Below are positions 2,050-14,596 of a DNA stretch of 59,201 bases, piece by piece. Source of the DNA: Candidatus Accumulibacter meliphilus (GTDB lineage Bacteria; Pseudomonadota; Gammaproteobacteria; Burkholderiales; Rhodocyclaceae); contig QPGA01000016.1 in NCBI GenBank assembly GCA_003332265.1, positions 1 to 59,201 of the forward strand, given 5' to 3'. A program made the translations under genes and the position numbers. Under the pieces are notes generated by a model, which saw only the letters and a list, made by a program, of their open reading frames with translations, made no database searches and was not told the DNA's origin. Each line of letters opens with the position of its first letter. The stretch's first letter is position 1.

Positions 2050-2355
2050 TCAGGCGATTGCCGCGGGCAGCCCGGTCCACACGATTCCCTCCGGCAAACT
2101 GGCGCGCCCGATGCGGCCCTGAAAGCCGCGTGCGGGCAGCGGATAGCAGCGCACGTCGTCGTCGGCAAGTTCCATCAGCTCGGCAATCTCGTCCAGGCAG
2201 CGGTCCTTGTCGACTTCGCTGCCGACCAGCAGAAAGATGCTGTACTCGAGCGGCGCCGCGTGCTTGCACATCTCGCGATGGATGCGCTGCAAGCGGCGCT
2301 GGTTGCTGATGTCGTAGCCGATCACGAAGGCCTGCAAACTATTCGTCGAAGTCAT
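2050..2355 (-). CDS. cas2: Second Cas2-family protein (distal to cas1)
   Basis: The 101-residue product has the Cas2 ferredoxin-like start, FVIGYDISNQRRLQRIHREM, with the conserved Asp after the first strand, then SIFLLVGSEVDKDRCLDEIAE and a C-terminal RCYPLPARGFQGRIG strand region. Cas2 forms the core of the Cas1-Cas2 spacer integrase; nuclease activity is not needed for integration. The start chosen at 2355 (two adjacent ATG codons, 2358 and 2355) overlaps the end of cas1 by 17 bp, so translation is probably coupled. Its sequence is clearly different from the other Cas2 at 3401-3688; this is not a recent duplication. It is the last minus-strand gene of the locus. Confidence 0.85.
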   Translation of the reverse strand: MTSTNSLQAFVIGYDISNQRRLQRIHREMCKHAAPLEYSIFLLVGSEVDKDRCLDEIAELMELADDDVRCYPLPARGFQGRIGRASLPEGIVWTGLPAAIA

Positions 2356-3385
2356 CATCTTCGGCTTCGGCCAGCGTATCGAGGCCATCCGTAGCGAGTG
2401 GCGGCAGCAGCGCATGCGTATCCTTGCGCTGCGCGGGCGGCGCATCGACGGAACCCGCTTGGGTGATCGCTGCCGCCACGTCGGACACGCTTTCGGTGAG
2501 CAGTTTGCGCAGCCGCCCGGCCAGCGGCTCCCACTCGGCGTAGTAGCGGGCGCGTCCCGCCTTGCCGAGGAGGCAGCCGCCGTCAGTCTGTGAAAAATCG
2601 TCGGCGCGCAGTTTCTCCGAGCGAAAGAGCATCAGGGTGTGCTGATCGATCTCGACGCGCAGTGGTTCGACCAGATCACAGGCGAGCGACTCGCGGCCGA
2701 AATCCAGCCCATGATAGAACCCGACGAAAGGATCGAGCCCGGCGCCGTACAAGGCCAGGACTGCCTCAGCATGCAGCAGCGTGTACGAGAGCGAGAGCAC
2801 CGCGTTCACCGGGTCTCGCGGCGGCCGGCGGTTGCGGCCGGCAAACTTCAGGCGCTCGGGCAGCAGGTCGGCGAAGCCCTCGAAGTAGGCGGCGGCACCG
2901 GCGCCTTCGAGGCCGCGCAGCGAAGCAAGCGAATGCTGCTCGTCCACCGCCCCGATGCAGCTGGCGAGTTGCCGCAGGGACAGCGTCAGCAGATAGCGTG
3001 AACGCGGCTCGTTGTCGCGGCGGAGGGTGAGGAAGTCCGCCTGTGCGCGCAGCTTGGCTTCGACGATGGCCCGCGAAAAACGCAGGCAGAAGTTGGCGTC
3101 GAGCGACAGCCGGTACTGCGCCACTCGCCGCGCCGCGTCATTGTGCGGACGACCGAGCAGCATCGTCGGCAGCGCCTTGCGCCCGGAGAGAACGACCACC
3201 CCGATTCCACGCTCGCCGAGTTTGCCGAGCAGCGACGACGACAGCGTCACGTCGCCGCGGATGAAGACCCGCGATAAGGGCGCCAGCGGCACGGTGCCGA
3301 TGCGCTCGCCGTTCTCGTAGAACACCAGCGCCTCGCCGTCCGCCTTCAGCGTCACGCAGCGCCGGTCAACATACAGACTGGTCAT
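2339..3385 (-). CDS. cas1: Cas1 integrase
   Basis: Cas1 is the metal-dependent integrase that inserts new spacers at the leader-repeat junction. The 348-residue protein has the N-terminal beta domain (SLYVDRRCVTLKADGEALVF) and the C-terminal helical domain with the expected metal ligands: E160 in RGLEGAGAAAYF, H225 in GFYHGLDFGRESLACDLVEP and the acidic pair D237/E240. A C-terminal extension of about 50 residues ends in an acidic stretch, EAEDDDFDE, part of which overlaps the downstream cas2. The upstream cas2 ends 15 bp before the ATG at 3385, so cas2-cas1-cas2 is one transcription unit. No reverse-transcriptase or other fusion is present. Confidence 0.95.
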   Translation of the reverse strand: MTSLYVDRRCVTLKADGEALVFYENGERIGTVPLAPLSRVFIRGDVTLSSSLLGKLGERGIGVVVLSGRKALPTMLLGRPHNDAARRVAQYRLSLDANFCLRFSRAIVEAKLRAQADFLTLRRDNEPRSRYLLTLSLRQLASCIGAVDEQHSLASLRGLEGAGAAAYFEGFADLLPERLKFAGRNRRPPRDPVNAVLSLSYTLLHAEAVLALYGAGLDPFVGFYHGLDFGRESLACDLVEPLRVEIDQHTLMLFRSEKLRADDFSQTDGGCLLGKAGRARYYAEWEPLAGRLRKLLTESVSDVAAAITQAGSVDAPPAQRKDTHALLPPLATDGLDTLAEAEDDDFDE

Positions 3386-3400
3386 TGTTTCTCCTCCCCC

Positions 3401-3688
3401 TCAAATGATCAGAAAAACATCCGTCACCGGCTGTGTCGCCCGGCCCAACATGTCGCGCCGCATGCGCGGATCGAGCTGGAAGATGTGTGCCCGGTCTTCA
3501 CTTAAAGCGAGCAATTCGGCCAGCGTGTTGCGCACTTCACGAAGTTCAGCCGCGGTCAGCCAGCACTCGAAGAACGACTTTTGACCACCGACCTTGTAGC
3601 CCATCAAATACCGGTGCACCCGCCGCAGCCGCTTCGGCTCGCAGATGTCGTAACAGACCAGGTACAGCGTTCGCGCCACATCGTTCAT
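3401..3688 (-). CDS. cas2: Cas2 (array-proximal)
   Basis: The 95-residue product has the classical Cas2 opening TLYLVCYDICEPKRLRRVHR, a central SFFECWLTAAELREVRN segment and an end DRAHIFQLDPRMR. The start at 3688 gives a normal-length Cas2 beginning MNDVARTLYL; an upstream in-frame ATG at 3748 would add 20 residues with no family match. A GGAGG lies about 14 bases before the chosen start, rather far. It sits 99 bp downstream (in transcription order) of the last repeat of the array and 15 bp upstream of cas1. It is the more conventional of the two Cas2 proteins and the likely integrase partner, but sequence alone cannot show which one pairs with Cas1. Confidence 0.92.
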   Translation of the reverse strand: MNDVARTLYLVCYDICEPKRLRRVHRYLMGYKVGGQKSFFECWLTAAELREVRNTLAELLALSEDRAHIFQLDPRMRRDMLGRATQPVTDVFLII

Positions 3689-3787
3689 GTCGCCACGATA
3701 GGCCTCCGTGGCACTCCTGTCAGGTCCGGCAAGCTTGCCGAAAATCACTGATCGATACAGGCGGAAAAATGCAGCGGCGGGAATCGT

Positions 3788-6700
3788 CCGTCAATCCCTT
3801 TGATTTCAGGGCTGGTTACTGACCGCCCCAGGCGAGCGCATCACCTGGAGGGACGCGGTCTCAATCCCTTTGATTTCAGGGCTGGTTACTGACCGAGGCG
3901 ATGTGGAGGTCGCACGTGTGCAGGTTATCTCAATCCCTTTGATTTCAGGGCTGGTTACTGACCAAAACTATTCCGATCTGCTTGCCAACGTCCCGGGTCT
4001 CAATCCCTCTGATTTCAGGGCTGGTTACTGACTCACGAAACCAGCCGCAAAGAAAGCGTAAGGAGCGTCTCAATCCCTTTGATTTCAGGGCTGGTTACTG
4101 ACGTGATTTCGACGATTCAGGCAGCGACTCGTACCGTCTCAATCCCTTTGATTTCAGGGCTGGTTACTGACTCTGGCTCGGCTGCACGGTGGAGCACGCG
4201 AAAACGTCTCAATCCCTTTGATTTCAGGGCTGGTTACTGACTCGCATGAGGCCCCGCATGGACCAGTTTATCCGCGTCTCAATCCCTTTGATTTCAGGGC
4301 TGGTTACTGACACATGGAACCAAAAACACAACAAAACGGCGCCCGCGCGAAGGTCTCAATCCCTTTGATTTCAGGGCTGGTTACTGACGCAGAGCGGAAC
4401 CAGGCCGGACGTTGCCTTGAGGTCTCAATCCCTTTGATTTCAGGGCTGGTTACTGACAGCTTATCGACAAAGTGTCTGCCCTCACGGACGGTCTCAATCC
4501 CTTTGATTTCTGGGCTGGTTACTGACCCAAAACCGGCGCCTACCCGAAACAGATCGGCCGCGTCTCAATCCCTTTGATTTCAGGGCTGGTTACTGACCCC
4601 AGTTCGTGTCAGGAAGCTGGTTAATGGGAAGGTCTCAATCCCTTTGATTTCAGGGCTGGTTACTGACGACAACCGCACCTTGACGGCAGGTAATAAAACC
4701 GCGTCTCAATCCCTTTGATTTCAGGGCTGGTTACTGACGCCGTCAAAACCGCCAAGGTTGCAAAGGTTATCCGCGTCTCAATCCCTTTGATTTCAGGGCT
4801 GGTTACTGACGGAGGAAGTCGTCGAAGCTAAGCTCTCGGAGGGTCTCAATCCCTTTGATTTCAGGGCTGGTTACTGACAAAGCAGCAAGCGCGTACAGCT
4901 TCGTTGCTCTTGCGTCTCAATCCCTTTGATTTCAGGGCTGGTTACTGACTGTAAGGTCTTCGCGCCAGCAGGCAAGAATCTCAAGTCTCAATCCCTTTGA
5001 TTTCAGGGCTGGTTACTGACACGTGCTTCATTCTAGCGTTTCCCATTGTTAACACGTCTCAATCCCTTTGATTTCAGGGCTGGTTACTGACAAGGGCGCT
5101 TTGTGACCTTGCATCCGACTTAGGGAGTCTCAATCCCTTTGATTTCAGGGCTGGTTACTGACAAAAGCCTGTTCAACTTCAGGAGACAAAGCAATGTCTC
5201 AATCCCTTTGATTTCAGGGCTGGTTACTGACAGCGGATCGAGCGGTATGCCGCAACACTTCCGTCTCAATCCCTTTGATTTCAGGGCTGGTTACTGACAG
5301 CACACTAGCTTTGGTGTCGTCCTATGTTGATGTCTCAATCCCTTTGATTTCAGGGCTGGTTACTGACATAGCGAGCTTGCGCGCATCGCCGCTGTTGAAG
5401 TGTCTCAATCCCTTTGATTTCAGGGCTGGTTACTGACGGCCATTGAAACGGCAGCGCAACACGGTACGGGGGTCTCAATCCCTTTGATTTCAGGGCTGGT
5501 TACTGACGCAGTTGGGCTGCTTTGCCTGTTGATCTTGGGCGTCTCAATCCCTTTGATTTCAGGGCTGGTTACTGACCGAGTGCCGCCTGATGTACAACGC
5601 CAAGGATGGGTCTCAATCCCTTTGATTTCAGGGCTGGTTACTGACACCGTTCGTCCAGCACATGCTGAACCCAATAGAGCCGTCTCAATCCCTTTGATTT
5701 CAGGGCTGGTTACTGACCAGACCTCCTCAACACATTCGAGGACCACGTGAAGTCTCAATCCCTTTGATTTCAGGGCTGGTTACTGACGCTGCCAGTTCGG
5801 TAACGCGGGAATCCAACAACAGTCTCAATCCCTTTGATTTCAGGGCTGGTTACTGACTCCGGGCATACTGCAGCAACGCACGGCGCATCTTGTCTCAATC
5901 CCTTTGATTTCAGGGCTGGTTACTGACGCCATCGTCAAGATGCATGATGCGCGCACTCTTGCAGTCTCAATCCCTTTGATTTCAGGGCTGGTTACTGACC
6001 GAGGAGGGGATTATATAATGTACCACTTATTCCTGTCTCAATCCCTTTGATTTCAGGGCTGGTTACTGACCGCATTATGATAACGCAACGAACACCGAGG
6101 AGGGGTCTCAATCCCTTTGATTTCAGGGCTGGTTACTGACGCGGAAGGTTGTAATACGCCTGAAGCGATAGTAGTGGTCTCAATCCCTTTGATTTCAGGG
6201 CTGGTTACTGACTTTACGGCAGCGCTTTGGCCTATCACAGAAATAGTCTCAATCCCTTTGATTTCAGGGCTGGTTACTGACGACATCCGCTGTCAAGCGC
6301 GAAAGCGCGAACAAGTCTCAATCCCTTTGATTTCAGGGCTGGTTACTGACAAAAAGCCGCCAGCGCGGTTAAACGTGAGGCGTCGGTCTCAATCCCTTTG
6401 ATTTCAGGGCTGGTTACTGACTTCAATCATGGCTGCTCGTACAAACAACCTGAGTCTCAATCCCTTTGATTTCAGGGCTGGTTACTGACTGGCCAGAATC
6501 AGCGACGCCGCACCGGGCATTGCGTCTCAATCCCTTTGATTTCAGGGCTGGTTACTGACGAAGATTGTCTGGGTCATTGGCTGCTAACCACTGGTCTCAA
6601 TCCCTTTGATTTCAGGGCTGGTTACTGACCTCACGCCTTGAGCGCATCGAACGTTATGCTTCAGTCTCAATCCCTTTGATTTCAGGGCTGGTTACTGACC

Positions 6701-7110
6701 GCTTTGGCCAGTAAGACCATAGGCGATTTTGTCTCAATCCCTTTGATTTCAGGGCTGGTTACTGACGCAATGAGGAAGGAAGGCATGACTCCAACTGAGT
6801 CTCAATCCCTTTGATTTCAGGGCTGGTTACTGACCGTTTGACGAATACGATAACGCAGTCGAGGTAGAGTCTCAATCCCTTTGATTTCAGGGCTGGTTAC
6901 TGACACAATCGATAATCGCATATTGCGTATCGATAATCGGTCTCAATCCCTTTGATTTCAGGGCTGGTTACTGACCCAGCATTCGACGCATACGATAGCG
7001 CGGTTATGTCTCAATCCCTTTGATTTCAGGGCTGGTTACTGACGGAGGTTGCCGCTATCATCAAGCAGCATGATGTCTCAATCCCTTTGATTTCAGGGCT
7101 GGTTACTGAC
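3788..7110 (-). CRISPR. CRISPR array, 48 repeats of 36 bp, 47 spacers
   Basis: The 36-bp repeat, read on the plus strand, begins GTCTCAATCCCTTTGATTTC and ends AGGGCTGGTTACTGAC. I counted 48 copies; spacers are mostly 32-36 bp, with one of about 41 bp after the repeat at 4276. The reverse complement ends ATTGAGAC, close to the canonical 8-nt ATTGAAAC 5' handle, so crRNAs are read leftwards, in line with the cas genes. Degeneration lies at the left end: the copy at 3788 differs in its first three bases, that at 3927 in its first base, that at 3997 has CCCTCTG and that at 4491 has TTTCTGGG. The right end is therefore the young, leader-proximal end. It begins only 5 bp after the cas6 stop codon. 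Confidence 0.98.
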
Positions 7111-7115
7111 TGCAC

Positions 7116-8144
7116 CTACAGATTTAATTCTTGTGTTTCAGACACTTGGCGCTGGCAGTCGCGGGGTTTGTCGAGGCTGTCAGAGGTGTCTTCGTGGCGG
7201 TCCCGGGCCAACTGGTATTGGCCGAGCCCGAAGCTTGCTTCCTTGCCGACATGCAGCCATTCTCCGAGTTGCAGGAAAGGGGCGAACGGTGCCAGGGGAC
7301 CTTCGAGCCGCCAGGTGCCGATGACGCCACCGAGACTCATTTTCTGCTTTTGCCGCGACGAAAAGCGGGTCCAGTCAAGCCAGGTCAGACGCTTCTCTTC
7401 GCGGATCAGTGCAGCGGCTGTGCTGAGCTTCGTAAAGTCACTGGCCAGCGGGCCGTCAGCATGGAATTCGGCGATCAGGCTCGCACGCCGGGTCAAGGCC
7501 ATGAGCAGCGTGCGCGCCTGCAGTTTGTCGGGGGGCAGCGCGCGGCCGTTGTGCTGCAGGCGCAGCGGTGTTTCAAAGTGGAGCACGGCGGCGCCGGGCG
7601 TCGCGCTGTCGTCCGTGCCTTTCAGGACAACCGTCTGCGCATGCGTAGCGATCGTTCCGATTTCAGGGCGGTGAATCTCGTGCTCGCCGGCATCACCGCA
7701 ATGGATGACGCGGTGCAGATCCGCCGTTCCGTCGCCGGCGCCGACGCCGCGCGCGAACGCGCGTCGCCAGGCCAGGATGATCAGCGGCAGTTCCTGCAGC
7801 GCCTTGCCGATCAGCACCTGGTGGAAGATCAGCGTTTCACCTTCCGCGAGCACGCGGCTGCCCCATGCCGGCGGTTCGATGACGTAGGGCACCGGCAGCT
7901 GCGAGAACTGCTGCAGGCGGTGACTGGTCGGCGGGGGCGGCGCGAAGACGGCTGGATACGGGCAGGAAGCGATCAGCGGGCAAGCGGCGCAATCCTTCTG
8001 CCGGGTCATGCACGCAAGTTGGCGCAGCGCGTGGCCGAAAGCGCCACGCAGCATCGAGCCGGCGTAGTCAGGCAGACGAATCGGCTGCCTGACCTCGAAT
8101 TCGAATCGGTAGCGGGCGACCGGGAAAGAGCTTGTCGTGTTCAT
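7116..8144 (-). CDS. cas6: Cas6 pre-crRNA endoribonuclease (RAMP)
   Basis: The 342-residue protein resembles the Cas6 type annotated as 'CRISPR system precrRNA processing endoribonuclease RAMP protein'. It has YAGSMLRGAFGHALRQLAC, a Cys-containing segment KDCAACPLIASCPYPAVF, YVIEPP, and a C-terminal EASFGLGQYQLA Gly-rich loop. It would cut pre-crRNA within the repeat to leave the 8-nt handle. The ATG at 8144 overlaps the csm5 stop (ATGA), indicating coupled translation. After the usual C-terminal end the frame runs on for about 29 polar residues (RDRHEDTSDSLDKP to ELNL) up to the first repeat; this DNA occupies the place where the leader should be. A catalytic His cannot be assigned with certainty. 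Confidence 0.88.
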   Translation of the reverse strand: MNTTSSFPVARYRFEFEVRQPIRLPDYAGSMLRGAFGHALRQLACMTRQKDCAACPLIASCPYPAVFAPPPPTSHRLQQFSQLPVPYVIEPPAWGSRVLAEGETLIFHQVLIGKALQELPLIILAWRRAFARGVGAGDGTADLHRVIHCGDAGEHEIHRPEIGTIATHAQTVVLKGTDDSATPGAAVLHFETPLRLQHNGRALPPDKLQARTLLMALTRRASLIAEFHADGPLASDFTKLSTAAALIREEKRLTWLDWTRFSSRQKQKMSLGGVIGTWRLEGPLAPFAPFLQLGEWLHVGKEASFGLGQYQLARDRHEDTSDSLDKPRDCQRQVSETQELNL

Positions 8145-9781
8145 GGCGCACGCAATGCCGACAATTTGAGTTTCTTGCGCTCGTCCTTGAGCTCGACCTT
8201 GACCACTTTCGGCAGCCATTGTTCGATCGCGTCGGCGACCGCCATTCGCTCCTCATGGGTCCAGGCGACGGCATCCCGCGCGAGTGTCCTCGCCGCGTTG
8301 TGGCACACGGCGTTGGCGTTTTCCTTGTTGCCGCGCAGTTGCTCGGCACGCGCGGCGAAATCGGCAATGAATTCTTCGACACGGCGGCGATTCGGGCTCA
8401 TCTCGGCCAAAGCGCGAGCGTGGGCTTGCCGAGCTTCTACCTCGGCGCGGGCCGCCGCTTCCTCGGTTCGCTTGCGGCTGGCGAGCACGGCTGCGGCGGC
8501 AGCCCGCCGTTCGGCCTTCTCCTCAAGTAGCAGCAGGCGTTCCCGGTGTGCTTCGCGCAGCGGCCGGCTGTGCGCCGCGAGCCTCTGGCGGACGGCATCG
8601 GAAAGGTGGCGATGGGGGGCGTCGCAGGCGTCGACCCACAGCCAGCCAAAAGGCAGCAAGCCGTGGTCACCGGCCCTTGTGAGGCTGGCGTAGCGTTTTT
8701 CGGTACTATTCGCGCGAAAGTCGAACTGTTGCTTGCCGTCGACGCGTGCACCGAGAATCTTGATGCTGCGCACGCCGCCAAGGGTGACTGACTCAGCGCC
8801 CGAGTGACGGCCGACACGGAGCAGGAAGCCCTGCCGTGCCTTGATCAGGTCGCCGAGCTCTTCGCCGAGCAGGTGACTGATCATTTGTCGCCACTGGTGG
8901 TCGAGTCGCTGGCTGAGCACAGGATGATCCAGTTCTTCCTCCAGCTGCGGCCGGTAGAAGCCGTTGCAGGCATCGCACAGGGCATCCCACAGAATCGTCG
9001 CCCCAGGAGCAAAACGCATCTCGCCGAGGAAAGCGGCGGGCAGCGCCTCGGGGATCGTTTCGAGAAACACTTTCAGTTCAGGCGAAGGGCGTTCATCGGC
9101 ACGGGGCGGGCGCTTCTTTTTGCTGATCGCGTAGAGAACACGTGTTGGCGGTGGCGTGCTCTCGTCCGCGGGGTGGGCATCAGCGAGGGCCAGCTTGCGA
9201 AAAGGATCGTTTTCGAACTTGCCGGCAGCGTACTTCAGCAGACGCTGTTCGAGGTTCTGCGATGCGCGTCGCTTGTCTGCCGTTTCTGCGGAGTTGAGCG
9301 GCAAGTCGGCGTTCAAGTGGTTGAGCCAGGCGGTGCGGATACTGCCCTTGAGCGAACTGCCAGGCAGGTAGGGCGTACCGTCCACAGGCCTGAAGGCGGT
9401 ACGGGCCAGCTGAAAGCTGTTGTACGTCGCTTCGCCGCTTGGGTCGCGTTGTGTCGGCCGACCTGCCTTTTCTGCGTATTCACGGGCGAGCGCCTCGGCC
9501 ACGACCACTTGCTGGCGTGACAGGTCGGCAAAGCGTGCCGCCGAGTCGCGGAAAAAGCGCTGGATGGCGCCGACCGGCTCGCGCTGCTCGGCCAGCGCGG
9601 CAAGCCGTTTGTGCTCGGCGTCGCTCAGCGCGAGCGACAGGTCGGCGGGTTCGAGGACATGCAGCAGACCCGCGTGGATGACGAAGCCACTCGGCTCATA
9701 GACCTCGCCGCAACCGATATGGAGCGGCGATAGCGTCGAGATAGCCAGCGTGCGGCGATCGTTGCGTACCTGGGTAGTCAC
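8141..9781 (-). CDS. csm5: Csm5, with coiled-coil C-terminal extension
   Basis: Csm5 is the RAMP subunit that caps the 3' end of the crRNA in the type III-A complex and helps recruit trimming nucleases. The RAMP core shows ISTLSPLHIGCGEVYEPSGF, the G-rich loop YLPGSSLKGSIRTAWLN and LRVGRHSGAESVTLGG. The start is the GTG at 9781, which overlaps the csm4 stop (GTGA); the ORF continues upstream only in a different frame from csm4 and without homology. At 546 residues it is longer than typical Csm5. The last ~150 residues are rich in Arg, Glu and Ala (HRERLLLLEEKAERRAAAAA), predict a coiled coil and end with a basic segment ELKDERKKLKL. Confidence 0.88.
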   Translation of the reverse strand: MTTQVRNDRRTLAISTLSPLHIGCGEVYEPSGFVIHAGLLHVLEPADLSLALSDAEHKRLAALAEQREPVGAIQRFFRDSAARFADLSRQQVVVAEALAREYAEKAGRPTQRDPSGEATYNSFQLARTAFRPVDGTPYLPGSSLKGSIRTAWLNHLNADLPLNSAETADKRRASQNLEQRLLKYAAGKFENDPFRKLALADAHPADESTPPPTRVLYAISKKKRPPRADERPSPELKVFLETIPEALPAAFLGEMRFAPGATILWDALCDACNGFYRPQLEEELDHPVLSQRLDHQWRQMISHLLGEELGDLIKARQGFLLRVGRHSGAESVTLGGVRSIKILGARVDGKQQFDFRANSTEKRYASLTRAGDHGLLPFGWLWVDACDAPHRHLSDAVRQRLAAHSRPLREAHRERLLLLEEKAERRAAAAAVLASRKRTEEAAARAEVEARQAHARALAEMSPNRRRVEEFIADFAARAEQLRGNKENANAVCHNAARTLARDAVAWTHEERMAVADAIEQWLPKVVKVELKDERKKLKLSALRAP

Positions 9782-10737
9782 GGGGCAGGCTCCAGAGCAA
9801 GGGGGACAATGGGGGCATAAGCCTGATGTACGGTGGCGGCTTCGGCCTTCGACAGTAGCCCCGCGCCACCGATGCCCTGGCCGATAAACGAACGTGCAGC
9901 AGCAAGACCGCCAGCGGGTACCAGAACGGCGCCGGTTGCGGCCAGAAGTACCGGTGTCTTGAACGGATGGGCGCTGAGCGCCAGCGCGTTGCCATGGCGA
10001 CCGAAGCGCGTGAGTACGCGCCAGTAGCTCTCGCTGCCGACAAAGCCCTGACCTTGCGGCGCACACGGTGCCAGCGTCCACCAGGCATTCGCAGCGGCGG
10101 GGGCGGTGAAGGCCGCCGCTTCAATGTTTTGCAAGCTGAACTTGCCGAGGCCGACACTGGCATCGCGGCCAAAGCCGCCGCTGCCGAGCGCGGTCAGCAG
10201 CGAGCCCGCCTCGTCGGCGCTGACGCGCTCGCTGTCGAGGACCAGGTAGACGTCGATGCGCTGCTCCTTGGCGTGGAAGGTCTGGGCCACAGAGTAGGGT
10301 GCGAAAGCTCCTTCACCGGTGGTGCCGCTCAGACGGTTGAGCGTGTTGTGTGCCTGCACGCTTTGCTGTGGCGGCTTGCCGGCGTAGGCTTGCTGGTCAT
10401 TGACGGCGCCTGCCAGTTGCTCGGCGAGAGCTTTGCCGGTTCGGTCGACGGGTAGCCAGTGCCGCTTCCTTGCCGCCTTGCGCTGGGCTGGATCGGCAAC
10501 GGGCGCTGAAAAATGCTGCGGCAAGGTTGGTCGCGGCAGGTAGCCCGCCGGGAAGCCGTCGGAGACTACCAGCCAGGGACGGCCGCTGGTATAGCCGTCC
10601 AGGCGGCGGCCAAGTTCGGCCTCGCCGGCGGCTTCGCGCAGCGCCCAGCAGAGCTGACCGAACAGCGTGTCACCGGCCAGGGGCGTGCCGAGCGCCGTGT
10701 GCAGCGCCAGGGTGGCGCGATGAAGGGTGTGCGGCAT
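9778..10737 (-). CDS. csm4: Csm4 (Cas5-like subunit)
   Basis: Csm4 binds the 5' handle of the crRNA and contacts Cas10. The 319-residue protein begins with the RAMP strand HTLHRATLALHTALGTPLAGD followed by the typical TLFGQLCWALREAAGE helix. It carries LNRLSGTTGEGAFAPYSVAQTFH and the Gly-rich loop ALGSGGFGRDASVGLGKFSL. The start at 10737 is 3 bp after the csm3 stop and its end overlaps csm5 by 4 bases. Length and order (csm2-csm3-csm4-csm5) are those of a standard III-A operon. Confidence 0.93.
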   Translation of the reverse strand: MPHTLHRATLALHTALGTPLAGDTLFGQLCWALREAAGEAELGRRLDGYTSGRPWLVVSDGFPAGYLPRPTLPQHFSAPVADPAQRKAARKRHWLPVDRTGKALAEQLAGAVNDQQAYAGKPPQQSVQAHNTLNRLSGTTGEGAFAPYSVAQTFHAKEQRIDVYLVLDSERVSADEAGSLLTALGSGGFGRDASVGLGKFSLQNIEAAAFTAPAAANAWWTLAPCAPQGQGFVGSESYWRVLTRFGRHGNALALSAHPFKTPVLLAATGAVLVPAGGLAAARSFIGQGIGGAGLLSKAEAATVHQAYAPIVPLALEPAP

Positions 10738-10740
10738 GAC

Positions 10741-11451
10741 TCAGGCAGCCGTGGCGAAGGGTTGCAGGGTATCGAAGTCGGCCTGGATCGACTGCCCGTC
10801 GAGCGCCAGCCCGCTGAGAGCAAGCTTGCCGTAGCCGCGCGAGCCGGAGCCACCCAGGCTGTCCAGTTCGAGCAGTTTCAGTCCACGCAGCAGCAGTGGC
10901 AGCAGGTCCTCGTTGTCGATCACTTTCAGCGACAAGCGGAAGTCGAACTCGGCGCCAGCGATTACGCGCTCGGTGAAGCGTGGGTTTTCGGCAACACCGG
11001 CGATGCGGTTGATCGAGTTCTCGCTCTTGGCTTCGGTGCTCAGGAGGTTGCGGGCACGGATTCCTTCCACCCAGTCACCGTTCAGCGCGCAGTCCCAGAA
11101 CGCACTGCGTGTCGGGCCGATCTGCTTGACCAGATCGTCGACCTCGCCGCCCGGCGCGCCACCGAACAAGCGCAGCAGATCGCGCGCCTCGGGTCTGTCG
11201 TGTTTGGCGAGGTGTTGAAACGAGAACGGATATCCGTTCGCTGGCGTCACCAGTCCGAGCTGCCATTCGAGCAGCGAGCGGATCTTGCCTTTCAGGGACG
11301 AGCCGGGGATGTAGGGCTGACCGTTAAGCGGGCTCTTGACGACCGGATTGTCGGTGCCGCCGATGCGCATTTCGGTGTCGCCAGCGCCAATATGCAGACC
11401 GGTCTTGAGGATCAGAGTGGCGGTGATTTGCTTGATTCGGGTGAGTTGCAT
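10741..11451 (-). CDS. csm3: Csm3 backbone RAMP ribonuclease
   Basis: Csm3 (Cas7-type) polymerises along the crRNA and cuts target RNA every 6 nt. The 236-residue protein starts MQLTRIKQITATLIL and contains LHIGAGDTEMRIGGTDNPVV; D34 in GGTDNP matches the catalytic Asp of the family (D33 in characterised Csm3). The crRNA-binding loop PYIPGSSLKGKIRSLLEW and the C-terminal GLKLLELDSLGGSGSRGYGK are intact. The ATG at 11451 is chosen because the in-frame region upstream runs into csm2 sequence without homology. Csm2 ends 20 bp upstream. Confidence 0.95.
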   Translation of the reverse strand: MQLTRIKQITATLILKTGLHIGAGDTEMRIGGTDNPVVKSPLNGQPYIPGSSLKGKIRSLLEWQLGLVTPANGYPFSFQHLAKHDRPEARDLLRLFGGAPGGEVDDLVKQIGPTRSAFWDCALNGDWVEGIRARNLLSTEAKSENSINRIAGVAENPRFTERVIAGAEFDFRLSLKVIDNEDLLPLLLRGLKLLELDSLGGSGSRGYGKLALSGLALDGQSIQADFDTLQPFATAA

Positions 11452-11471
11452 GGTTTGTGCTCCGTGGCAGG

Positions 11472-11843
11472 TCAGGGACGAAGTGCCTTGAGAAATCCGA
11501 GGACGGCTTCGAAGTGCAGGCGAAAGTGGTCGAGGGCCCTGGCGCTGGTCGTGGCCTTGAGACATCCGCGAAACCACGTCTCGAATTCGCCATCGACCAG
11601 ACCGCGCCCCTTGGCGTAGGCAACCTTGGCGTTGAGCATTCGAATGAAGGCGAGGTATTGCTCAAACTTGCCGTCGTCACCGGCGATACGTTCCTGCCAG
11701 CCGACCAGCTCGTCATAGAAGCGGCGAATCTGCGTCGATTTGTTCAGATGGCGAGCGGCCTGAGCGAGCCGGTTGGCGACCCGCTCGGCCTCTTCATTGA
11801 AGAGCTCGGCATCGGGTGGAAAGCTGGCCAGATTGATGGACAT
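11472..11843 (-). CDS. csm2: Csm2 small subunit
   Basis: This is a 123-residue, all-helical small subunit of the type III-A complex that lines the target-RNA groove. The segment STQIRRFYDELVGWQER and later FIRMLNAKVAYAKGRGLV are the conserved Csm2 features, and it ends HFRLHFEAVLGFLKALRP. The start at 11843 follows an AGGAG ribosome-binding site (reverse strand of 11850-11858). It lies between cas10 (80 bp gap) and csm3 (20 bp gap). Confidence 0.92.
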   Translation of the reverse strand: MSINLASFPPDAELFNEEAERVANRLAQAARHLNKSTQIRRFYDELVGWQERIAGDDGKFEQYLAFIRMLNAKVAYAKGRGLVDGEFETWFRGCLKATTSARALDHFRLHFEAVLGFLKALRP

Positions 11844-11923
11844 CGTTGCTTCTCCTTTTTGGTATCGTGTGTCATGTGCATTTCATTGTCAGCTGCGGCA
11901 AGCTTGCCGTAGCCGCTTGCCGA

Positions 11924-14596
11924 TTACTCACGCTGCCGGTAGAGCAGTACCGACAGCGGCAGGCGGTAGGCGCCCTTGTGCGTGCCCAGGGCGCCGCCGA
12001 TTTCGCGGATGGCGTCCCGCAGTAGCTGTTCGCGGCGCGTGCGCGCGGCCTCGTCGCCCTTGACCCGGTCGCGAAAGAAGCGCGTCAGGCGGTAATGAAG
12101 CTGCGAGCGCCAGATGGCGTCTTCCGGCCGCGTGCTTTCGGCGCGGTCGGCCAATTGCAGCAGTGCGTAGGCCAGGCCGCTGGAGAAGGTCGCACCGTGA
12201 CTGTCGGCTCGCGCCATCAGATCTTCAAGGGCGGCCCGACGCTCTACCATCAGTGTCTGCCAGTCCGCCCAGCCGACGCTGCGCTGCCAGAGACTCACCG
12301 CGTTCTTGCCGGGACGGGCCTTGGCAGCGCTCAGTGCCGTTGCGGTGGAACGGCCGAGCTGGCGGATCGGCGTCTTTGGCTGCGTCATGGCCAGCCCGGC
12401 CGAGAAGCTGATGTGCGGGTTGGCGACGTAGGCTGCGAACTTCTCGCGCAAGATGGTTGCGAGCGCGAGGGTCGACTCCCAGGGGCCGATCAGGAAGAAA
12501 TCGTCGCCACCGGCAAAGACGGTGTAGGTGTTGCGGTAGCGCGGGACGCCGTTCTCGTCATGGCCGTGCTCGCAGAACCACGGCAGCCAGAGGGCGAAGA
12601 AAGCGTTGATTTGCCGCGAAAGAGAGGCCATCTTGGCGAAGGTCGGCTTCTCGAGGCCGCGCTGGAAGAGGCTGCCCAGGTCATCGATGTCGCCCTTGAT
12701 GGTGACCAGGGCGATCTCTCCCTGCCAACGTTCCCCAGCAGTCAGGCGGCGATCCTCGCAGGCGATGTGATGCAGCGTCTTGATGGTGGCAGAACGCAGC
12801 GGGTCGCCGTCGGTTTCGTGCGCGAAATCCTCTTCACCCTGCCACTTGCCGTACTTGCCGGCGGTCTGGACATCGCTGGCGTCGAAGCGCGGCACGTAGC
12901 TGTTGACGAAGCGTCTGGCGTAGCCGCGCCAGAGCGTGCCGTCGGCTTCGGCGGCGTCGAAGTCCCAGACGCGCAACAGCGTCCCGTTGCGCGCGAGTTC
13001 GCCGTACTTGCCCGATTCCTCGCCGCTGCGGACGATCGCCAGGCGATAGCCGAAATAGTCGAGGCCGAGGACCGGCAACGTGCTGGCGTCGCGGGCGACG
13101 AGCAGCCGCGCGTCGCGAGTCAGTTGCTCGCCAATCCGAATCTGGTCGTCAGCAAGCTTCGACAAGGAATAGCCGCGCCTAGCCGATGCCTCGCGATCGG
13201 CCGGGTGACGGCCGTTAATGGCGCAGACGCCGAGCGTATTGTCGAAGCTGTCGAGAAAACCGTCGAAAGCTGTCGTCGCCTCGTCGGCGCAGAGATCGAA
13301 GCGCTGGTGTTTGGCGGTGTCGAGCGCTGCGAACAGACGTTTGGTCAGGTCGCCGAAGCGACCGCTCGCGAAGTCGTTGCACGAAGCTGGCGTGCTGGCG
13401 AGGCCGACGCCGATCTCGCCGTAGGTGTGCTTCAGGCACCAATCGTTGAGCTCCTGCCGACAGCGGCTGACGGCAGCATGCGCTGTGGCGGTGTTCGGCG
13501 CGACGATCAGGAACTTGCCGGCGGCATTGATGATCTGCGCCGTCGGGGGTAGTTCGAGTGCTTCGAGCAGCTTCAAGGCGGCGCATTCGGCGAGCAGGGA
13601 AACCTGGAAGGAACGGCCACGCAGCAACTTGTGGGCGTTCTTCTGCGTTGCGCCGCCTTCGGCAAAGATGAAGTCCTGGATGCCGAAGAAGTCACCCTGG
13701 ACGAGCAGGAACTTCGCGGCGGACCAGCCGTCGCGCAACGCACGCACGCTGCGCAGCTCTTCATCACTCTGCTCGTGGTGCCAGCGCCAGAGCGCCGTGG
13801 CCAGCGCGGCGGTGGCTTTGCTGTGATCGTAGAGCGAGACTTCCGGCTTGGTACCGAAAGCGGTTGCCGCGGGGATGGCGTGCGTGATCGTCAGCCACAG
13901 GCTGTCGAAGTGGTCCAACCACAAGGGCAGGGTGCTGACGTGAGCTTTTGGGATGTGGTGAATTCCGGCGAGTAGCGCTTCCCACAGCGTCAGGTACTCG
14001 GCGCGCGCAGCGGCGTTGTCGCGCGGGGTGCACGCGTCGGCGCGTTGCGGAAAGATGCTCTCCGGCGCCAGCGGCCGCAGCGCGTAGCGCCATTCGAGCT
14101 CGCCTTCAATGATCGGGCCGCGGCCGATCTGCTCGAAGAGTGTCAGCAGACGCGCGCGGTAGTGGTTCTCGCGTTCTTTCTTGTTGTTGTACTCGCTATC
14201 AAACTTGTCGCGTTCGAAGCCCGAGGCCACGCGATCGGCGGTGGCGACGATCCACTGCAGGAAGGTGTCCGGCCGATGGTGCGCGCTGGCGGCGTTGACC
14301 GCCGAGTCGGTGGCGTTGTCGTCGGTTGACGTCGAGAATGGCGGCGCGTCGCGGCGAAGATCGGGGAAATGTCCCGTCGCTTCGAGTTCGTCCCAGGCGA
14401 GGCCGGTGTAGGCGGCGTGGATATGGCTGTGATAGCCACGCCGCGGGTCGCTGCCCTCCTGGTGCCAGGGGCAATAGAGCGTGCGATGCGCATCGAGGCG
14501 ACCGTGATGATCGATGCCGGCGCGCTCGGCGAGCTTGCCGACGTCGTGCAGGAAGGCGGCCAAGGCGACGCGTGCCGATTGTTCGAGAAACTTCAT
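11924..14596 (-). CDS. cas10: Cas10/Csm1 with intact HD and GGDD sites
   Basis: Cas10 is the signature subunit: its HD domain cuts ssDNA and its Palm domain converts ATP to cyclic oligoadenylate when target RNA is bound. The 890-residue protein begins FLEQSARVALAAFLHDVGKL, with H17-D18 as the HD pair. The second Palm domain carries GGDD at residues 696-699 in YTVFAGGDDFFLIGPWES. A CPWH site near residue 49 and the pre-Palm segment FLLVQGDFFGIQDFIF are also typical. Both activities should be present. The ATG at 14596 is 18 bp downstream of the csx1-like gene, so effector and synthase are co-transcribed. Confidence 0.96.
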   Translation of the reverse strand: MKFLEQSARVALAAFLHDVGKLAERAGIDHHGRLDAHRTLYCPWHQEGSDPRRGYHSHIHAAYTGLAWDELEATGHFPDLRRDAPPFSTSTDDNATDSAVNAASAHHRPDTFLQWIVATADRVASGFERDKFDSEYNNKKERENHYRARLLTLFEQIGRGPIIEGELEWRYALRPLAPESIFPQRADACTPRDNAAARAEYLTLWEALLAGIHHIPKAHVSTLPLWLDHFDSLWLTITHAIPAATAFGTKPEVSLYDHSKATAALATALWRWHHEQSDEELRSVRALRDGWSAAKFLLVQGDFFGIQDFIFAEGGATQKNAHKLLRGRSFQVSLLAECAALKLLEALELPPTAQIINAAGKFLIVAPNTATAHAAVSRCRQELNDWCLKHTYGEIGVGLASTPASCNDFASGRFGDLTKRLFAALDTAKHQRFDLCADEATTAFDGFLDSFDNTLGVCAINGRHPADREASARRGYSLSKLADDQIRIGEQLTRDARLLVARDASTLPVLGLDYFGYRLAIVRSGEESGKYGELARNGTLLRVWDFDAAEADGTLWRGYARRFVNSYVPRFDASDVQTAGKYGKWQGEEDFAHETDGDPLRSATIKTLHHIACEDRRLTAGERWQGEIALVTIKGDIDDLGSLFQRGLEKPTFAKMASLSRQINAFFALWLPWFCEHGHDENGVPRYRNTYTVFAGGDDFFLIGPWESTLALATILREKFAAYVANPHISFSAGLAMTQPKTPIRQLGRSTATALSAAKARPGKNAVSLWQRSVGWADWQTLMVERRAALEDLMARADSHGATFSSGLAYALLQLADRAESTRPEDAIWRSQLHYRLTRFFRDRVKGDEAARTRREQLLRDAIREIGGALGTHKGAYRLPLSVLLYRQRE

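Follow-up and report, generated by a model that had tools for sequence, protein, structure and literature searches.

A putative CRISPR leader within the cas6 reading frame of a type III-A locus of Candidatus Accumulibacter, in a frame that appears to be kept open

Organization of the locus and polarity of the array

The window, by which we mean the whole stretch of 59,201 nucleotides that was analysed, is placed by its named relatives (the best 80 of 256 loci were named) in the genus Candidatus Accumulibacter. It carries on its minus strand, in order, genes for a CARF protein and a TM1812-family protein, csm1, csm2, csm3, csm4, csm5, cas6, a 48-repeat array, cas2, cas1 and a second cas2. The locus was assigned to type III-A on Cas10/Csm1, Csm2, Csm3, Csm4 and Csm5, all five of which scored above the NCBIfam cut-off. 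The features are as follows.

8141..14596, minus strand: csm5, csm4, csm3, csm2 and csm1/cas10, type III-A effector genes (NCBIfam)
7116..8144, minus strand: cas6, 342 aa (Pfam PF10040, PADLOC, AlphaFold2), with a core to about residue 312
7111..7208, minus strand: putative leader, 98 bp from the end of the Cas6 core (residue 312) to the first repeat, encoding Cas6 residues 313-342 and the stop
7185..7190, minus strand: leader motif A, GACAYC, at −80 and 42 bp before motif B
7139..7148, minus strand: leader motif B, CAAn4YTG, placed at −38 relative to the repeat and shared with non-coding leaders
7111..7118, minus strand: leader end TAGGTGCA, adjoining the repeat and containing the cas6 stop TAG, with little or no change in most Accumulibacter loci
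3788..7110, minus strand: type III CRISPR array with 48 repeats (36 nt each) separated by 47 spacers, leader-side end at 7110, taken as transcribed leftward
2050..3748, minus strand: cas2, cas1 and second cas2 past the far end of the array, on the same strand as the array

The cas6 gene, the array and the cas2-cas1 genes thus share one strand. On that strand the repeat finishes 3′ in ATTGAGAC, with close variants in the arrays of relatives. Type III-A systems are also marked by Cas6 processing and an 8-nt 5′ tag on the crRNA, for which the locus offers a cas6 gene and this repeat end. The cas6 stop codon TAG (7116-7118, minus strand) is separated from the first repeat (7075-7110) by a gap of 5 bp, exactly as an earlier note on this DNA had claimed. 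No further match to the repeat was found in the own genome with up to 3 mismatches allowed. Four repeats are variant, all in the far third of the array: that at 3788 (3 mismatches) and those at 3927, 3997 and 4491 (1 each). One spacer (4312-4352) is 41 bp long, the others among the 47 being 31 to 36 bp. The two cas2 genes that flank cas1 (2050-2445 and 3401-3748) are different from each other, a layout with similar counterparts in L092, L105 and L141.

Repeat decay was pooled over 15 arrays, the window's included, these being the complete ones with ten or more repeats among 21 that were chosen by hand; two of the pooled arrays, L120 and L139, are separated from cas6 by 1.8 and 3.4 kb. The five leader-side repeats had 0 mismatches to the consensus and the five far-end repeats 41, of which 26 came from L139 and from the poorly matching last repeat of L093, leaving 15 versus 0 without them. 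Decay was at the far end in 9 of the 15 arrays and at neither end in 6. Since the pooled decay is at the far end, the leader side of the array is the cas6 side, in agreement with the earlier note, which had placed the leader at the right.

Comparison between strains, also proposed there, could draw on one near relative only. This nearest relative (L088; Cas6 identity, 98%; same contig as G015:C52) has a 98-bp leader identical to that of the window, with 11 differences across 1,034 bases of cas6 and junction, and its degenerate last repeat is identical as well; however, none of the 47 window spacers was shared with its readable spacers at either array end. At the leader end, one such spacer was whole and one was cut; at the far end, two were whole and one was cut, so that spacer sharing was uninformative about polarity either way.

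The leader within the 3′ end of cas6

CRISPR leaders are usually taken as intergenic. In the window, the last residue matched to the Cas6 family is 310 by Pfam and 313 by the best PADLOC match, and the last predicted strand stops at residue 312. This leaves a tail of about 29 to 30 residues, whose codons, with the stop, reach to 5 bp from the first repeat. Within the genus, 17 of 28 genomes had a relative of this Cas6, and within the family 59 of 395; at E 1e-20, the order sample gave 13 of 399 and the class sample 36 of 369. The order and class samples gave two more usable abutting arrays, L172 and L169, the latter from a second copy of the genome of L127; the array of L207 abuts cas6 too, and its Cas6 match is partial. 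Viral contigs searched with the Cas6 alignment yielded 15 stretches that fit a pattern, and none encoded a relative. We distinguished loci in which the cas6 frame runs on through the leader (read-through) from those in which it ends soon after the core (early-stop). Where loci agreed in their last 120 bases, the boxA scan, the motif scan and the boxA and phase statistics counted them as one. The early-stop group numbers 13 in both of the following cases: L207 is among the loci of the motif scan and of the phase and boxA statistics, from which L169 is absent, and L169 is among the rows of the boxA tree contrasts, from which L207 is absent. The start of the repeat was shifted by one base in L096 (trimmed from the detected repeat) and by six in L133.

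At −38 (±2), motif B was present in 18 of 21 read-through loci and in 8 of 13 early-stop ones (control scan further upstream, 0.01 and 0), and motif A at −80 in 14 of 21 and 4 of 13, respectively (upstream control, 0.067 and 0.015). Because the non-coding leaders of early-stop loci carry both motifs, neither is derived from Cas6 coding. Motif B appears to resemble the core of the IHF consensus. Leader function would hold the bases of the two motifs and of the junction with the repeat, presumably for spacer integration. The distance from core end to repeat was exactly 98 bp in 18 loci (13 from Accumulibacter and L096, L057, L115, L022 and L106), a spacing that is not due to chance; it was 83, 85 or 86 bp in the other read-through loci and 95 bp in a locus with an interrupted cas6. 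In this last locus (L086, G007 contig 143), the cas6 frame is broken near residues 177 to 181, and the leader motifs and an array of 40 repeats persist; it was kept as read-through in the boxA scan, the motif scan and the phase statistics.

The stretch thus has what marks a CRISPR leader, lying on the side of the intact repeats and bearing motifs at a fixed distance in coding and non-coding relatives alike. As the motifs recur in non-coding leaders and the 98-bp spacing holds in 18 loci, the sequence identifies the last 28 to 29 or so codons of cas6 as the leader of the array. No second copy of the leader was found in the own genome. A leader-repeat hairpin was rejected as a candidate, the leader with the first repeat and spacer folding no better than shuffles (z = 0.21). 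A leader within a cas6 frame was found described nowhere in the open-licence literature, as judged from titles and abstract openings among the matches listed.

Constraint on the frame through the leader

Differences among 12 Accumulibacter loci were spread evenly over codon positions 1, 2 and 3 in the tail (0.368, 0.437 and 0.393), whereas the adjoining core showed the pattern of a coding sequence (0.144, 0.093 and 0.485). Amino acid identity in the tail was 0.362 when read in the cas6 frame, and 0.371 and 0.436 when read in the remaining frames. By these two measures, no amino acid-level constraint was detectable in the tail. The flat codon-position pattern, together with the motifs in the non-coding leaders of relatives, bears out the proposal of the earlier note that the tail is translated leader DNA. 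Its further proposal that leader recognition and Cas6 coding constrain the same bases held by half: the protein sequence places no detectable constraint on them, but DNA motifs, spacing and an open frame are kept. Of what marks DNA that serves protein coding and regulation at once, a frame kept open beyond chance was found here, and constraint at the protein level was not.

A lone open frame would mean little, because 13 of 36 frames were open by chance over 83 nt in 12 early-stop, non-coding leaders. We therefore moved the parsimony substitutions on the Cas6 tree to other sites that carry an identical base, each site being weighted by its variability, using one quick tree and leaving out the read-through loci of 83 to 86 bp. 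Over the 18 loci of 98-bp spacing, the cas6 frame gained no stop against about 6 expected (5.3 to 8.2 by version), with P averaging 0.0007 and at most 0.005 over 15 reconstructions, while stop gains in the other two frames were near expectation (4 versus 7.0 and 10 to 11 versus 8.8). Omitting the first five codons gave a P of 0.0025; in the 13 Accumulibacter loci alone the avoidance was weaker (P = 0.0065, 0.0205 and 0.028 by version). None of the loci examined for the core-to-repeat distance combined 98 bp with an early stop. Furthermore, this distance was 2 mod 3 in 20 of 21 read-through versus 3 of 13 early-stop loci, the loci being related, so that these are not 20 events. From these comparisons, the translatability of the leader, not its sequence as protein, appears to be under selection.

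The foremost alternative is that an ancestral cas6 lost its stop and the frame ran by chance through a GC-rich leader, with only leader function being selected. Frames open by chance are indeed fairly common in non-coding leaders, the tail has no detectable amino acid constraint, and the frame terminates at various places: of 20 read-through loci, 11 have the stop 5 bp ahead of the repeat and 1 has it 8 bp ahead, and in the remaining 8 it ends 4, 10, 22, 25 or 56 bases past the repeat start (deeper in the repeat in L022, L057, L106 and L141). Such drift would, however, leave unexplained why stop gains are missing from the cas6 frame only, and why the distances share one phase, related though the loci are; we consider it unlikely, yet still to be reckoned with.

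In L114, L124 and L132, bases 2 to 4 of the first repeat supply the cas6 stop, which would be renewed at each spacer insertion. In L130 (Candidatus Accumulibacter iunctus), the stop lies in the newest spacer, so that the end of Cas6 would change with every acquisition; two extra bases seem to sit ahead of the first repeat in this locus.

Transcription of the array and boxA

No sigma-70-like site, the one promoter type scanned, was found at 7050-8300 (shuffles, 0.0), nor was a terminator-like site in the same stretch (shuffles, 1.4), and cas6 and the array probably form one transcript. Together with the shared strand, these negatives are consistent with the proposal of the earlier note that the array would be transcribed as the 3′ end of the cas mRNA. 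The array could instead have a promoter of its own inside the cas6 tail, a TAnAAT-like element some 14 to 19 bp before the repeat, and cas6 translation would then be irrelevant to it. Several Accumulibacter loci do have TACAAT, TATAAT or TAGAAT at that place; against this, the scan for the one promoter type gave no match in the window, the element is missing by eye in L063, L065 and L058, and an own promoter would not account for the avoidance of stops. We regard it as improbable.

The boxA sequence TCTTTAACA, sought up to 400 nt from the repeat, was present in 8 of 13 early-stop rows versus 0 of 24 read-through rows (Fisher P = 3e-5), a count in which one of the 8, L169, comes from a second copy of the genome of L127. 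L155 has its boxA on the upstream side of the cas6 stop. Neither boxA nor read-through was found in 5 of the 13 early-stop rows. Tree contrasts, made without the interrupted cas6 of L086 (G007) and without Cas6 rows that were identical or partial, gave three independent comparisons, of which one or two differed in boxA, all in the expected direction. In the window, no boxA with up to 1 mismatch was found within 400 nt upstream of the array or on the strand of the cas operon from 7111 to about 17300. L105, L127 and L128 have a perfect boxA core at −41 or −42, where other loci have motif B.

Rho sites are expected to be rich in C and poor in G. The leader is not clearly so, and an excess of C over G in read-through leaders was rejected as a candidate feature, as these did not differ from early-stop leaders (P = 0.25).

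Taken together, these observations are consistent with an account in which the leader lies within cas6, cas6 and array form one transcript, and the leader is kept free of stops so that ribosomes translating cas6 would reach the first repeat, leaving no long ribosome-free RNA ahead of the repeats for Rho to load on; several early-stop relatives would use a boxA antitermination site instead. We give this account as a whole a probability of roughly 0.55. The sequence itself shows the polarity of the array, the identity of its leader, constraint at the DNA rather than the protein level and stop avoidance. That the open leader serves against Rho, with cas6 translation as the likely substitute for boxA, is suggested by the sequence tentatively, at somewhat less than even odds. 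It is more doubtful that cas6 translation acts as the array's own means of antitermination, replacing boxA and coupling the supply of crRNA to the translation of cas6; selection would then preserve the translatability of the leader, though not its amino acids, to let ribosomes follow RNA polymerase as far as the first repeat. As the 3.3-kb array itself is untranslated, the mechanism would need processing by Cas6 to protect the remainder. If true, it would be a second solution, besides boxA, by which long untranslated CRISPR arrays escape Rho.

The Cas6 tail as protein

The earlier note had suggested looking at where Cas6 homologues end; most of those without a near array stop soon after the core. 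The median tail after the core was 4 residues in rows without a near array, 3 in early-stop rows and 30 in read-through rows. Tails of 28 to 46 residues were present in all 24 read-through rows, while in 90 rows without a near array the tail was 15 residues or less in 76 and more than 20 in 12. A long Cas6 tail is, by these counts, typical of abutting arrays, though not unique to them. Residues 315 to 342 are predicted to be disordered (AlphaFold2 pLDDT under 50). Among solved structures, all matches to Cas6 were weak, the best being MMB-1 Cas6 (E = 0.0044).

The long tails of every read-through row, those of the 12 array-less rows and the avoidance of stops could also fit a tail that is a functional part of Cas6, with the leader elsewhere or shorter. 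This reading is very improbable, as it is at odds with the flat codon-position differences and the lack of a frame preference in amino acid identity, with the predicted disorder, with the other relatives that stop a median of 3 to 4 residues past the core and with the motifs at the same distance in non-coding leaders. The chance of a leader at the other end of the array (3788), with the array running rightward, is close to nil: nothing was found in its favour, and it is contradicted by the repeat decay pooled over 15 arrays, by the same degenerate last repeat in G015 and by the motifs conserved at the cas6 end. The tail of Cas6 is best explained, with slightly better than even confidence, as an unstructured by-product of the translated leader, without a selected sequence of its own.

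Comparison with known systems

Ordinary intergenic leaders, as in the early-stop relatives L070, L076/L145, L158 and L166, and the type II-A leaders downstream of csn2 (PMC5382924) are likewise short motif-bearing DNA beside the first repeat; unlike either, the putative leader of the window lies inside the cas6 reading frame. Arrays antiterminated through boxA (Stringer et al., as cited in PMC7862264) are alike in being long, non-coding and in need of full transcription; unlike them, none of the 24 read-through rows, the window among them, has boxA in the scanned stretch, and cas6 translation is proposed in its place. Others have placed boxA ahead of a synthetic array with the aim of increasing the amount of crRNA precursor (PMC7862264). 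With the leader-repeat hairpin of type VI systems (PMC13187072), the window shares leader RNA directly 5′ of the first repeat on the transcript, but it differs in being of type III-A, with a coding leader and folding no better than shuffles.

The leader would be a natural case in which the same bases are leader DNA and mRNA kept translatable without a selected protein sequence. Annotation of cas6 would hide such a leader.
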